In this document: positions 4,292 to 41,510 of the stretch, one piece after another
Layout: the number at the start of each line of letters is the position of its first letter
Numbering within the stretch: position 1 is the first letter of the stretch
NCBI GenBank assembly: GCA_003554945.1
Contig: PWHN01000032.1
Span: 1 to 53,666, forward strand
Direction: 5' to 3'
DNA length: 53,666 bases
Source: a bacterium
GTDB lineage: Bacteria; T1Sed10-126
Notes under the pieces: model-generated
Told to the model about the DNA's origin: nothing
Seen by the model: the letters and a program-made list of their open reading frames with translations, nothing else
Databases searched by the model: none
Position numbers and translations under genes: made by a program

Positions 4292-5659
4292 GTGCACGAT
4301 TTAATTGTGATTGGAGCCGGACCGGCCGGTTACATCGGAGCAATAAAGGCGGCCCAGGAGGGGATGGACGTGGTTGTGTTCGACGAGAACAAGCGCCCCG
4401 GTGGGGTATGTCTGAACTGGGGCTGTATTCCAACCAAGTCCCTCCTGCACCTGGCCGAGAAGTTTCAGTTCACCAAAAACGCCGCTGACTACGGGATCTC
4501 CCTCGAAGTCGACGGAGTTGACTGGGAGCAGGTAGTCAGCAAGAGCCGCCGGGTCGTCCGGCGTCTGGGGAAGGGAATCGAGGCCCTTTTTAAGAAATAC
4601 GGCGTCCGTCTGAAAAAGAAACGGGCCAGCCTGGTCGAGCCGGGAGTTGTCGAGGCCGACGGGGAGCGCTTCGAGGCCGAGAACCTTCTCCTGGCGACCG
4701 GTTCAAAACCACTGGAGTTAGATTCCGTCAGTGCTAACGGCGAGCGCATTATGACCAGCCGTGAGGCCCTGTCGCTTGACCGGCTGCCCGACAGCCTGCT
4801 GATTGCCGGGGGCGGTGCTATCGGGCTTGAGTTCGCCTACCTGTTCAATACCTTTGGCGTTGACGTCACCGTGTTTGAACTTGAGGATCAACTGTTGCCC
4901 GGCGCCGACCGCGAGGTTGCCCGGGTGGTGGAAAAGGAGTTGAGCAAAGCCGGAATAAACTTTGAAACTTCCACCGCGGTTGCCGGTCTCAGCCAACAAC
5001 AGGATGAAGTAGTCGCTGAAACCGAGTCCGGGTCCGGCTACAGCGCCGAGCTCGGTCTCATCGCCCTGGGTCGCGTCCCGGCAGTGGACGGTTGCCCGGG
5101 AGAAAAGGTTGAGCCGGAGACGGACTCCCGCGGCTGGATTGAAGTAGATCGAAGCTACCAGACGAGTCTGCCCGGCGTTTACGCGGCTGGAGACGCGATT
5201 GGTCCACCGCACCTGGCTCATGTAGCTTCGGCGGAAGCGCTTCGCGCCGTCGATAGTATGTTGGGGGCGCAACCGGACCCGCTCGACTACGACCGGATAC
5301 CGGCCGCCGTCTTCACTAACCCGGAAGTTGGCGCCATGGGATTGACCGAAACAGAAGCCAAACAAAGTTACGACCGGGTTGAGACGGGCAAGTTTCCCTT
5401 CCGGGCCCTGGGGCGGGCCGTCGCCGAGGCCGAGGTCGAGGGTTTCGTAAAACTTGTCTTCGCCGGAGAAGACAGCGAGCTGGTTGGAGCCCACGCGGCT
5501 GGGGCGGACGTGGCCTCACTGCTGGGAGAACTGTCCCTCGCCGGTAGCCTGGGAGCCACGCCCGAGGAACTTCACCGCGCCGTCCACGTGCATCCGACCC
5601 GCTCGGAAGCTATCCCCGAGGCTGCCCTCGCTGCCGTGGGCAATACCCTGCACATGTAG
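4292..5659 (+). CDS. lpdA: Dihydrolipoyl dehydrogenase-like flavoprotein
   Basis: A pyridine-nucleotide disulfide oxidoreductase with the dihydrolipoamide dehydrogenase layout: FAD motif VIGAGPAGY at the N-terminus, redox disulfide GGVCLNWGCIPTKSLL, NAD motif GGGAIGLEFAYLF, FAD motif GVYAAGDAIG, and the C-terminal HVHPTRSE His-Glu pair that serves as catalytic base. I choose the GTG at 4292 (MHDLIVIGAGPAGY) because a GGTGAT ribosome-site match lies just upstream; the longer reading from 4280 would include that site. No E1/E2 complex or glycine-cleavage genes are adjacent, so the dithiol partner may be a sulfur carrier or a lipoyl protein elsewhere. Mercuric reductase is less likely: no N-terminal HMA domain or C-terminal vicinal cysteines. 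Confidence 0.88.
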   Translation: MHDLIVIGAGPAGYIGAIKAAQEGMDVVVFDENKRPGGVCLNWGCIPTKSLLHLAEKFQFTKNAADYGISLEVDGVDWEQVVSKSRRVVRRLGKGIEALFKKYGVRLKKKRASLVEPGVVEADGERFEAENLLLATGSKPLELDSVSANGERIMTSREALSLDRLPDSLLIAGGGAIGLEFAYLFNTFGVDVTVFELEDQLLPGADREVARVVEKELSKAGINFETSTAVAGLSQQQDEVVAETESGSGYSAELGLIALGRVPAVDGCPGEKVEPETDSRGWIEVDRSYQTSLPGVYAAGDAIGPPHLAHVASAEALRAVDSMLGAQPDPLDYDRIPAAVFTNPEVGAMGLTETEAKQSYDRVETGKFPFRALGRAVAEAEVEGFVKLVFAGEDSELVGAHAAGADVASLLGELSLAGSLGATPEELHRAVHVHPTRSEAIPEAALAAVGNTLHM

Positions 5660-7849: not shown

Positions 7850-8123
7850 ATGATTATTGGCGTGCCCCGGGAGAAGGGAGACGAGGACCGGGTAGGGCTT
7901 GACCCCGCCTCGACCCGATAAGATTCGCACGAAAAAGCTGCCTGAAACGAGACGAGGACCGGGTAGGGCTTGACCCCGCCTCGACCGCGGAGCTGGCTGA
8001 CCAGGGTCACGAGGTTCTGATCGAAGCCGGGGCCGGCGAGGCGGCAGGTTTCTCCGACCGGGATTACGACCGGGCTGGAGCCGAAGTCAGATCAGGCGCA
8101 GGGAAAATACTGGCCGAGGCCAA
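7850..8123 (+). pseudogene. Alanine dehydrogenase / PNT N-terminal fragment, broken
   Basis: The frame opens with ATG at 7850 behind an AGGGTGA site and reads MIIGVPREKGDEDRVGLDPAST, the start of the AlaDH/PNT family. A 38-bp segment (7878-7915) is then repeated at 7949-7986, adding 71 bp, which shifts the frame and brings in stops. Removing the duplication restores DPASTAELADQGHEVLIEAG, AGEAAGFSDRDYDRAGAEV, exactly the family's next block. Homology stops near 8123, where an opposite-strand fragment begins. Only about 70 of the usual 370 residues remain. It probably once belonged to the upstream operon, 27 bp from the methyltransferase. Confidence 0.8.
7878..7986 (+). repeat. Tandem 38-bp duplication inside the alanine dehydrogenase remnant
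   Basis: Copies at 7878-7915 and 7949-7986 appear identical, beginning GAGACGAGGACCGGG. They are separated by 33 bp of unrelated sequence, giving a 71-bp insertion that is not a multiple of three. Confidence 0.9.
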
Positions 8124-8273
8124 CAGAGTAATGGAGTCAGGTTCAAGCGGGTCCCATTGAATGACTTTCTCCCCTTCTGCACTGCGGCTGACGACGTAAG
8201 CTTCATCCCCTCGGGCTTCGAGGGCTTCAACGAGACGTGAACCAATTAAGCCGGTCCCACCGGTGACAACCAC
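8124..8273 (-). pseudogene. NAD-dependent epimerase-like (TIGR01777-type) N-terminal fragment
   Basis: The minus strand from 8273 reads VVVTGGTGLIGSRLVEALEARG, then AYVVSRSAEGEKVIQWDP: the Rossmann start of SDR epimerases, the WDP resembling the TIGR01777/YfcH group. After about 48 residues the reading enters the antisense of the alanine dehydrogenase fragment and meets a stop at 8064, so over 80 per cent of the expected 300-residue protein is missing. Both remnants lost their 3' parts at one join, as expected of a single deletion or inversion. Confidence 0.7.
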
Positions 8274-8412
8274 TTGTATGGCCGCGGTTCCTTTCCCTCA
8301 AGAAGTGAGATTTCAACTGATGGAAGTATAACAAACGTTGTCAATCTGTATTCTGAGAAATGAGCGCGCTTTTCTCCGCCTTGCACTGAACATAAAATTA
8401 TGATTAAGTTAA

Positions 8413-8473
8413 ACGTAAACAGCCGAACAAACTGCACGTAAACTACCGAATAAATAAAACGTAAATTGCCGAA
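8413..8473 (+). repeat. Three direct repeats with exact 23-bp period (iteron-like)
   Basis: ACGTAAACAGCCGAA (8413-8427), ACGTAAACTACCGAA (8436-8450) and ACGTAAATTGCCGAA (8459-8473) share ACGTAAA--nnCCGAA with a constant 23-bp start-to-start distance, about two helical turns. The last copy ends 3 bp before the GTG start of the ATPase gene, occupying its ribosome-site region. This looks like a multi-site operator or iteron for a protein bound on one face of the DNA. The binder is unknown; autoregulation by the downstream gene is one possibility. Confidence 0.85.
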
Positions 8474-8476
8474 TGG

Positions 8477-9745
8477 GTGATCAAAATAGATTTTAAATAT
8501 TATCCGAGGATTATAGAAAGTGAGCTTGAAAATTGGCTTTCTTCAACCGGTGGAGTGGTAATAGAAGGCCCCAAAGTATGTGGTAAGACAACCACAGCTC
8601 GTCGTTTTGCTGAAAGCGAAGTGCTTCTTGACGTTGATGAGGAAGCCCGCGAGGCAGTAAAAGTTGATCCCACCCTGGTTTTGGAAGGCGAGACTCCCCG
8701 GTTGATTGACGAGTGGCAGCTTGCCCCAGACCTGTGGAACCATATCCGTCGGACGATTGATGAACGCTCTAATCCGGGTCAATTCATTCTCGCCGGATCG
8801 GCGACTCCAACTGATGATATTACCCGTCATAGTGGGGCTGGCCGTCTACGTAGAATTCAAATGCGTACTATGTCCCTGTATGAACGTGAGAACTCCAGTG
8901 GCGAAATTTCCCTGTCCCAACTTCTGGACGGGCAAGAACAACGTTGTTCTAAACCAGAAATGAGCGTCCGGGAGCTGGCCGAGCTGACTTCCATTGGCGG
9001 TTGGCCGGTTCACCTTGGACTTGAAATAAATGATGCGCTGGAGACTGTTCGTGGGTATATTGACGAGATCAGGCGTGTTGACGTTAGTCAGGTAGATGAA
9101 CGCACCCGGGAGCCGCAAAAAGTAGCGCTGTTGATGAAGTCGTTTGCTCGCAACGTAACAACTGCGGCCAGCTTAAAGACCCTGGCGACCGATACAGGTC
9201 GCGGAAACGGGGAAATACATCCGGATACGGTAAGAGACTATCTGGGTGTGTTGAAAAGATTAAAAATTGTTGAAAATCAACCGGCCTGGGCTCCTCATCT
9301 TCGCTCAAAAGTAAGGCTGCGCAAGAAACCACGACATCATTTCGTGGATCCATCGCTTTCCGCGGCGGCACTTGACGCGGGACCGGAACGATTGCTGGAT
9401 GACCTTGAATTTTTTGGCTTATTATTTGAGTCCCTGGTTATTCGTGACCTGCGAATCTACGCGCAGCCGCTTGGCGGCACCGTTTATTACTATCGTGACG
9501 AGACGGGGCTGGAGGTTGACGCGGTGGTTGAGACAAATGATGGGCGCTGGGGGGCTTTTGAAGTAAAACTGGGCCCCGGTAGAATAGATGAGGGGGCAGA
9601 AAATTTACTGGATTTTGTTGAGAAAGTTGATACGGACAAATGCGGCCAGCCGGCCGTGCTGGGAGTAATCGTGGGTAAGGGAACTTATGGCCGGCAGCGT
9701 GAGGACGGAGTCGCAGTTCTACCAATAGCCAGTCTCGGTCCCTAA
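8477..9745 (+). CDS. AAA ATPase with DUF4143 domain
   Basis: A 422-residue protein of the AAA_14/DUF4143 group. Walker A is GPKVCGKTT at residues 31-39, Walker B PRLIDEWQLAP near 74-84, sensor-type ILAGSATP near 117, and the C-terminal DUF4143 part ends with a PD-(D/E)XK-like pattern: GLEVDAVVE then GAFEVKLG. Members are common solitary ATPases in bacteria and archaea, of unresolved role, sometimes suspected of acting in defence or as mobile cassettes. The GTG at 8477 has no good Shine-Dalgarno and is preceded directly by the three 23-bp repeats. It sits between gene remnants and a metal pump with no operon partner, as expected of a recently arrived gene. Confidence 0.9.
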   Translation: MIKIDFKYYPRIIESELENWLSSTGGVVIEGPKVCGKTTTARRFAESEVLLDVDEEAREAVKVDPTLVLEGETPRLIDEWQLAPDLWNHIRRTIDERSNPGQFILAGSATPTDDITRHSGAGRLRRIQMRTMSLYERENSSGEISLSQLLDGQEQRCSKPEMSVRELAELTSIGGWPVHLGLEINDALETVRGYIDEIRRVDVSQVDERTREPQKVALLMKSFARNVTTAASLKTLATDTGRGNGEIHPDTVRDYLGVLKRLKIVENQPAWAPHLRSKVRLRKKPRHHFVDPSLSAAALDAGPERLLDDLEFFGLLFESLVIRDLRIYAQPLGGTVYYYRDETGLEVDAVVETNDGRWGAFEVKLGPGRIDEGAENLLDFVEKVDTDKCGQPAVLGVIVGKGTYGRQREDGVAVLPIASLGP

Positions 9746-39834: not shown

Positions 39835-41510
39835 CTAATTTTTTGAAAATTGAGCGACGATTGCCAAATATAATATTTCTGCTTTTAAGCCTTCTGGTGC
39901 TTCTTTATCCTGTTCAATCCCGGGGCACAGAGGAAACAAAACTTACTGCCGAGGTGCGTCAGCAGGCGGCCGAGGAAGGAAGCGTCAGAGCACTTGTTAA
40001 GCTGGATCTGCCGCTGCAGCCGGAGTCGCGGTTATCGGTTCAGCAGCGGAATAGCCAGCGCCGGGGTATCCAGCGTGCCCAGGAAAAGGTTGCCGCGAAA
40101 GTTGATGAAAACGGCGGGCGTGTCAAACAGCGTCTGCAGTCAAGCTCCCTGATGGCAGTTGAGGTCGACGAGGCTGGCCTGGAAAAATTAAGCCGGCTGG
40201 AACTGGTAGAATCGGTAAGCAAAGAACCTGTGTTAAATATCCAGGCGGAAGCCAGCCTGGGAACAAGCGGACCCCACATCGGGGCGGCCGACCTTCACGA
40301 CACGGCAACGGGGGAGGACCAGATTATTGCCGTGCTGGATACCGGAATTGATACGCATCCGGCTTTTGATGAACGGGAGCGAATTGTTGGTGAAGCTTGT
40401 TTTTTGAGCGCCAACGATGGCCAGTGCCCCAACGGTGATACTGAGCAATTTGGTCCCGGGTCGGGAATAGACTTTGAAGGGCATGGTACGCACGTGGCCG
40501 GCATAGCGGCGGGACAATTTGTGGGGGCCGACGAACTGGAAAACAGTAACGATGACCTGGATACCGGCGTGGCTCCCGGCGCCGATCTGCTGGCAGTGAC
40601 AGTTTTAAACGAAGAGGGGGACGGGAAATTTACCGATATTTTTAAGGGTCTTGAATGGGTGGCTGATAAGGCGTCTGATTCGTCCGTGGTGGCAGCAAAT
40701 TTAAGCCTGGGTGACGGCGAAAAATATACGAGTTACTGTGACAACATAACCGTTGAAGGGGAGGCGGCGAAAGGTGTATTTGATAACTTGATAGAGGCGG
40801 GGGTTGTGCCCGTTGTGGCCAGCGGCAATGAAGGTCACAGCGATGGAGTTTCTTTTCCGGCCTGCCTTTCTAATACGGTTGCAGTTGGAGCGACTAAGAA
40901 TTATCTAAACGAAGAAATCACATCGTTTTCCAATCAGCATCCTGAGATGGTTTCCCTGGTTGCGCCCGGGAACAATATCAGGGCTGCCAAACCGCAAAAC
41001 TCAGCCGGCCAAAAAAGTGGTACTTCAATGTCGGCACCGCACCTCGCCGGTGGTCTGGCGCTTTTGAGTGATGCGCTTGAGGAGCAAGCCCCGGAGGAGA
41101 TTATTGCTGCCATGCGAACCAGCGGCAAACGGGTTGTAGATGATCGAGCCGGGGGAGCTTCGTATTCAAGTATTCGTCTGCTGCGGGCCTACAATTATCT
41201 CGTGGGACTCGAGGAAGAATTTGATGAAGAAGATAAATTTTTTATTGTTCCCAATCCATACCGGCCCCATGATGACAGTGCGCGCACAGGTAGTGTCGCT
41301 CACGGAATAAATTTTGTCAAGTTGCCGGAGGATTTTGAACTAACAGTTTACAGTCTCACCGGTGAAGAAGTGGTTTCCCGCCGGAAAAGAAATTCAGGTG
41401 GTAGCTGGGAGTGGTATCCGGTGGAAGCGGGGAGCGGCACTTATTTTGTCGTGGTGAAGGATCTTGCAACAGGTCGCCTGGAGAAACGAAAGCTGGGGAT
41501 AGTGAAATGA
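39831..41510 (+). CDS. Secreted subtilisin-like serine protease with C-terminal sorting-like domain
   Basis: 559 residues. Signal segment (NIIFLLLSLLVLLYPVQS), an I9-like propeptide (residues 40-135), and an S8 catalytic domain with Asp170 (AVLDTGIDTHPAFD), His218 (FEGHGTHVAGIAAG), Asn333 (VVASGNEGH) and Ser399 (SGTSMSAPHLAGG). The last 90 residues form a small beta domain beginning FFIVPNPYRP and ending TYFVVVKDLATGRLEKRKLG, with FELTVYSLTGEEV in the middle: the FlgD-Ig/T9SS-type-A pattern. Translational overlap with the PorV-like gene (ATGA) suggests co-function, for example secretion or surface anchoring of the protease. Confidence 0.93.
   Translation: MTNFLKIERRLPNIIFLLLSLLVLLYPVQSRGTEETKLTAEVRQQAAEEGSVRALVKLDLPLQPESRLSVQQRNSQRRGIQRAQEKVAAKVDENGGRVKQRLQSSSLMAVEVDEAGLEKLSRLELVESVSKEPVLNIQAEASLGTSGPHIGAADLHDTATGEDQIIAVLDTGIDTHPAFDERERIVGEACFLSANDGQCPNGDTEQFGPGSGIDFEGHGTHVAGIAAGQFVGADELENSNDDLDTGVAPGADLLAVTVLNEEGDGKFTDIFKGLEWVADKASDSSVVAANLSLGDGEKYTSYCDNITVEGEAAKGVFDNLIEAGVVPVVASGNEGHSDGVSFPACLSNTVAVGATKNYLNEEITSFSNQHPEMVSLVAPGNNIRAAKPQNSAGQKSGTSMSAPHLAGGLALLSDALEEQAPEEIIAAMRTSGKRVVDDRAGGASYSSIRLLRAYNYLVGLEEEFDEEDKFFIVPNPYRPHDDSARTGSVAHGINFVKLPEDFELTVYSLTGEEVVSRRKRNSGGSWEWYPVEAGSGTYFVVVKDLATGRLEKRKLGIVK

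Follow-up and report, generated by a model that had tools for sequence, protein, structure and literature searches.

A 23-bp repeat array as a probable self-read operator of AAA_14-DUF4143 ATPase-nuclease genes

Why should the gene of a bacterial ATPase carry, right up to its start codon, copies of one short sequence set at a constant step? The question is raised by a stretch of 53,666 nucleotides (hereafter the window, meaning the whole of the DNA analysed), in which the pattern ACGTAAAnnnCCGAA occurs exactly at positions 8413, 8436 and 8459, with a step of precisely 23 bp. The letters of the three copies are ACGTAAACAGCCGAA (8413-8427), ACGTAAACTACCGAA (8436-8450) and ACGTAAATTGCCGAA (8459-8473); taken as columns 1-15 of a 23-bp unit on the forward strand, they constitute repeat unit 1 (ACGTAAAcagCCGAA), unit 2 (ACGTAAActaCCGAA) and unit 3 (ACGTAAAttgCCGAA), the last of which ends 3 bp short of the GTG start codon at 8477. 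In these respects the preliminary description of the locus was accurate; its count of three holds for the exact copies but overlooked a decayed fourth unit on the same strand, ACATAAAATTATGAT at 8390-8404, which lies in register with the array and retains 8 of the 12 fixed positions. The repeat family as a whole reaches back to 8385.

An ungapped self-alignment of the 220 bp upstream of the gene, over lags of 12-60 bp, is best at lag 23, with a score of 21 (z of about 10) that was matched by none of 2000 dinucleotide shuffles of this region. The array is also the top lag-23 segment across the entire window; the runner-up, at 41394-41437, scores 13 and is probably a chance match. The 15-mer core is exact between units while the 8-bp spacers vary, which argues against recent slippage. 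Within the 2.2-Mb genome of this organism the only exact copies of the 15-mer are the three in the array, and the six sites with one mismatch are no commoner than those of a reversed-pattern control; the prospect that the 15-mer might be common elsewhere in the genome was thus not borne out. The spacing had been described as exactly two helical turns, placing all units on one face of the DNA. Two turns of B-DNA amount to 21 bp; a 23-bp step corresponds to 23/10.5 = 2.19 turns and rotates each unit by about 69 degrees relative to its neighbour, so this part of the description has to be given up. There is no Shine-Dalgarno-like run between the array and the GTG, and a TAA at 8462 closes the reading frame, which rules out a start codon much further upstream.

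The gene itself (8477-9745, forward strand) encodes a protein of 422 residues, in which both Pfam domains score above their gathering cut-offs: PF13173 (AAA_14) with 113 against 28.1 bits and PF13635 (DUF4143) with 47.8 against 27 bits. An AlphaFold model built from an alignment of 41 sequences (mean pLDDT 92.5, pTM 0.93) shows an AAA core followed by a winged helix and a C-terminal domain with a nuclease motif. The core carries the Walker A motif GPKVCGKT (residues 31-38; 8567-8590), whose residues 31, 36 and 37 are invariant in all 130 array-bearing homologues, and a Walker B region ending in D78-E79 (residues 75-79; 8699-8713), both of these acidic residues being likewise present in 130 of 130. 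In the predicted structure the recognition helix of the winged helix spans residues 249-261 (9221-9259) and its wing residues 265-289 (9269-9343). The C-terminal PD-(D/E)XK-type domain (residues 310-416; 9404-9724) contains the motif E318, D348, E362-x-K364, which is kept among the 130 homologues with E318 in 129, D348 in 129, E362 or its replacement D in 128 and K364 in 128. By this conserved E...D...(E/D)xK motif the protein is a member of the PD-(D/E)XK nuclease superfamily, with a predicted nuclease activity. A sequence search of the PDB recovered no real relative, and the nearest solved folds in a structure search are the archaeal AAA+ ATPases 2qen and 2fna, Cdc6/Orc1 on origin DNA (2qby) and NLR resistosomes, the AAA+ ATPases and Cdc6/Orc1 with low TM-scores (0.2-0.5).

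The gene had been called an orphan, a label that is apt for its neighbourhood, where it stands alone, and inapt for the genome, which holds four DUF4143 genes; the single genome sampled from its family contains none. Its flanks in the window comprise ordinary metabolic genes, metal-resistance genes and gene fragments. Just upstream lie a remnant of an alanine dehydrogenase gene (AlaDh_PNT_N; 7850-8160), interrupted by a 36-bp direct repeat, GACGAGGACCGGGTAGGGCTTGACCCCGCCTCGACC, whose two copies, at 7880 and 7951, are 71 bp apart, and an NAD-dependent epimerase gene on the reverse strand (8067-8273) that is cut down to an N-terminal piece. Together they form a small gene graveyard, as at an insertion site.

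A functional setting is offered by PADLOC, whose PDC-S01 model (PDLC04790) matches residues 7-420 of the window protein (1.1e-67) and all 41 members of the homologue alignment. PDC-S01 is described as an ATPase fused to a PD-(D/E)XK domain and has been ranked the fourth commonest defence across prokaryotes, with tens of thousands of copies, although most PDCs, PDC-S01 included, still await validation (PMC12988326). The likeness extends to the full-length match of the window protein and the same ATPase-PD-(D/E)XK fusion; hence, a role as a candidate defence effector is plausible.

The array proved to be a property of the gene's relatives. Some 85,000 species genomes were scanned and yielded 67 relatives, the upstream DNA of nearly all of which contains tandem repeats, with letters that differ in each. 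In this first set, with the lag left free and a significance threshold of p<=0.02, 50 of 61 upstream regions show significant self-repeats, 43 of them at lag 23 and five at lag 46, as against none of 63 coding and one of 59 far-upstream controls. The pattern holds in an enlarged set of 157 close homologues from many phyla, including loci from plasmids, phages, viral contigs and further genomes: 140 have significant upstream self-repeats, peaking at 23 bp in 119 and at 46 bp in 12, whereas random flanking windows are significant in 18 of 300 cases, with scattered lags and only two at lag 23. The arrays have a median of four units, and the median distance from core to start codon is 45 bp in the relatives; the window array abuts its start codon. 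At one locus (L057) the gene is also followed downstream by an array (about 4330-4450) whose sequence type is that of the upstream array, perhaps the mark of a lost second copy.

The distribution of the arrays follows subfamily boundaries. GPRQSGKTTL-type DUF4143 genes have essentially no such arrays, and other subfamilies, for example the GPRQCGKTTL group, do possess them. In a further DUF4143 subfamily (GARQTGKSTL or GPRQVGKSTL; L009, which is G000:C95, and L143 and L144) palindromic sites about 22 bp apart occur upstream, for instance ACCACTAAGTGGTT..ACCACCCGGTGGTT at L009, which is possibly another operator design.

What is conserved is the 23-bp architecture and not the 15-mer. It had been expected that close homologues would share the 15-mer, an expectation that failed: a search of 290 genomes for two tandem copies of the motif recovered this locus alone, and none was found in viral contigs. 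As a check on autoregulation such a search gives a false negative, because it is the architecture and not the sequence that persists. For the same reason the arrays are easily overlooked: searches based on sequence conservation are blind to them, and searches for architecture are needed.

Comparisons within genomes indicate that the sites are private to each gene. All five near-exact sites in a complete genome (G635) lie inside the gene's own array, so that in this genome, as in that of the window, the array is absent elsewhere. The tandem paralogues at two loci (L064 and L075) each have their own, different array, and in genomes with three to five copies the arrays are mostly dissimilar, with cosines mostly of 0.0-0.45; pairs of proteins with more than 75% identity have a median array cosine of 0.81. 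A counterpoint to the idea of private addresses is that a few same-genome paralogues have fairly similar arrays, with cosines of about 0.7.

If each protein reads its own array, the letters of the repeats should follow residues of the protein. When the arrays of 130 homologues are set in a common 23-column frame, residue 250 and column 11 form the strongest residue-column pair (robust z of 16.8, compared to a maximum of 10.9 in 30 label permutations), followed by 250 with 13, with 249-10 and 342-2 close behind. The preferences can be read out directly: D, E or N at residue 250 goes with C at column 11, K with G, and Q or P with T; R249 or K249 goes with G at column 10; and K at residue 342 goes with G at column 2. 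When phylogenetically independent pairs were used to take out shared ancestry, the pair of residue 250 and column 13 came first among 5509 tests over 52 such pairs (p=6e-6). Residue 250 is also the best of 415 residues in predicting column 11 from training homologues less than 50% identical, with 77% success against a baseline of 35%, and the second-best residue gains a mere 13 points; under the same regime residues 250 and 248 are the best predictors of columns 12 and 13, and residue 342 that of column 2. In several distant lineages (L057, L077, L146, L179, L075) the helix start SRPT is paired with GTAA.

These residues fall at suggestive places in the predicted structure. Residues 248-250, which track columns 10-13, form the start of the recognition helix, a position from which contacts to the major groove are expected; residues 280 and 283 of the wing covary more weakly with columns 3-4; and residue 342, which tracks columns 2-3, lies in a hairpin (residues 341-343; 9497-9505) six residues before the catalytic D348. 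The covariation argues strongly, if indirectly, that the ATPase binds its own array. A window-wise partial correlation points to the hairpin region 334-342, the wing and residues 247-256, and also to 28-36 and 188-196; because the last two also score, this measure alone does not localise the DNA-reading surface. No DNA contact is expected of them, and leftover common descent is the probable source of their signal. Carried over to the distant GPRQCGKTTL group with its TTRCRATYGGCCG arrays, where the frame or orientation may differ, the code gave no clear fit. Earlier comparisons on 58 loci were less informative: a first mutual-information run was noisy, and a rotation-free comparison of arrays gave weak correlations, which improved in the common 23-column frame with 130 loci.

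The position of the arrays relative to promoters bears on what such binding might do. At the threshold used, a sigma-70-like promoter site is recognisable in 66 of 130 upstream regions, about half being without one. In these 66, most -10 boxes follow column 1 of the last unit at a distance of 20-22 bp, or of one period more (43-45 bp); three phases carry 23.5 of about 34 weight units, and the largest weight of a single phase is 10.9, compared to a null mean of 4.1 and a null maximum of 7.1. Given a 17-bp spacer, the first columns of the last unit coincide in part with the -35 hexamer (TTGACA, TTGCCA). Where relatives have a recognisable promoter, the last repeat thus usually overlaps the -35 box and the spacer. 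The two promoter boxes, measured from start to start, are likewise 23 bp apart. No sigma-70 promoter was recognised upstream of the window's own gene, whose array runs up to the start codon, so that promoter occlusion is only conjectural for this particular copy. TAAATT at 8462-8467, inside unit 3, is a possible -10 box of a nearly leaderless mRNA. In the GPRQCGKTTL subfamily (L132-L139, L148) the TTRCRATYGGCCG array likewise stops a few bases before the start codon; there, a leaderless promoter could be formed from successive units, with TTGCGA as its -35 and TACGAT as its -10 box, and the window gene may be arranged likewise.

Taken together, we consider it probable, at roughly 0.78, that the repeats are an operator array bound by the ATPase-nuclease encoded downstream, by which the gene represses itself through an address private to each copy, and that the product so controlled is a candidate defence effector. 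On this account the ATPase-nuclease would bind just upstream of its own gene, with the approximately 16-bp core of each 23-bp unit divided into two halves for reading: residues 248-250, at the N-terminal end of the recognition helix, would read columns 10-13 (here CCG, paired with D250), and columns 2-4 would be faced by the wing and the nuclease-domain hairpin with residue 342. Several protomers might then sit side by side at the fixed 23-bp step, perhaps cooperatively. With the last unit over the -35 box and spacer, RNA polymerase would be blocked and expression held low in a self-limited manner; own addresses would allow paralogues in one genome to avoid cross-regulation. The effector under such control would be the candidate anti-phage ATPase-nuclease of the PDC-S01 type. 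Autorepression is the simplest reading because the last unit overlaps the promoter in relatives, as occlusion would have it; the sign of regulation could be activation instead. The suggestion in the preliminary description that a dedicated array signals autoregulation is therefore well supported by the arrays of the homologues, the letters that track recognition-helix residues and the promoter-phased last unit in relatives.

A related, rather unlikely alternative gives the array-bound protein the role of an activator, or of a nuclease that is kept poised or sequestered. While the array is occupied, the effector would stay inactive, and release on infection would both derepress the gene and free the nuclease; possible triggers are a phage competitor and the loss of DNA or supercoiling. 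The proximity of residue 342 to D348 suggests that DNA held by the protein could come close to the nuclease site, and the STAND-like/NLR fold neighbours and the PADLOC candidacy are in keeping with such a sensor. Sensing and nuclease activity are both conjectural, however, and simple feedback repression accounts for the phasing. In its fullest form, which we regard as equally doubtful, the array would be the resting seat of a STAND-like ATPase-nuclease, placed on its own promoter with DNA near the nuclease site, that becomes derepressed and armed when occupancy is lost through phage takeover or DNA damage, with fast-changing base codes insulating the many copies of a genome from each other.

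Distinctly improbable is the possibility that an integrated or former plasmid is involved, with the protein as its replication initiator or partition factor and the repeats as origin iterons or a centromere. In iteron-Rep systems, encoded winged helices bind fixed-step direct repeats beside the gene and thereby autoregulate, so that tandem direct repeats next to the gene are a shared feature. Further, the AAA+/winged-helix protein has a fold similar to that of Cdc6/Orc1 on origin DNA, and some homologues are found on plasmids and phage-like contigs. The archaeal Cdc6/Orc1 (2qby) shares the order of an AAA+ domain and then a winged helix, the latter binding DNA repeats; the window protein differs in its lack of a replication context, in its extra nuclease domain and in the low similarity scores given above. 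In contrast to iteron-Rep systems, the DUF4143 genes are solitary and chromosomal, show no sign of an origin, encode a nuclease motif and are often present in several copies per genome, with repeats that change between paralogues. An almost invariant C-terminal PD-(D/E)XK motif would be needless for an initiator, and the phasing of the arrays with promoters also speaks against one. Among the plasmids examined, the two from Collinsella have ParA and CopG/ParG-type genes of their own, and pPAES01 has a ParA. A replication- or partition-like role, as had been entertained for this locus, thus finds no footing in solitary genes and in plasmids with other par genes. Membership in a Rep family was considered and rejected, Pfam giving AAA_14 and DUF4143 only and PHROGs just a weak AAA hit. 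A two-gene ParABS or ParMR module was likewise rejected: no partner gene stands beside the ATPase gene in the window, and the neighbours varied in the annotated regions read.

It is still less likely that another host regulator, such as a global repressor of defence islands, binds the array. A precedent is RptR, a separate repressor that represses its own promoter and controls a defence island via three direct repeats overlapping the promoter of the phage-defence locus (PMC12255303). Against such a regulator, the letters of the arrays differ between same-genome paralogues and follow residues of the ATPase itself, and the genomes searched contain no further copies of the sites. The presumed array resembles the RptR operator in being a set of direct repeats over the promoter of its own defence locus; RptR differs in being a dedicated small homodimeric repressor with 9-bp repeats, whereas here the ATPase-nuclease would itself be the repressor. 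That the three repeats are a functionless product of chance or slippage in a short, AT-rich stretch can be dismissed on computational grounds in view of the shuffles, of spacers that differ around an exact core, unlike recent slippage, and of the more than a hundred homologues that share the 23-bp step.

Direct-repeat operators, autoregulated defence loci and iteron-Rep systems are already known; what appears new is an effector ATPase-nuclease that is presumably its own, individually coded repressor. In the literature searched, which excluded preprints and most subscription papers, we found no report of an array for DUF4143 or PDC-S01 genes, PDC-S01 is described with neither an upstream array nor self-recognition, and DUF4143 appears by name solely in a Thermus gene list. 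For the PDC-S01 clade, a self-read 23-bp array would assign these ATPase-nucleases a sequence-specific DNA ligand, place them in a probable regulatory circuit and supply a code that relates residues of the protein to bases of the operator.
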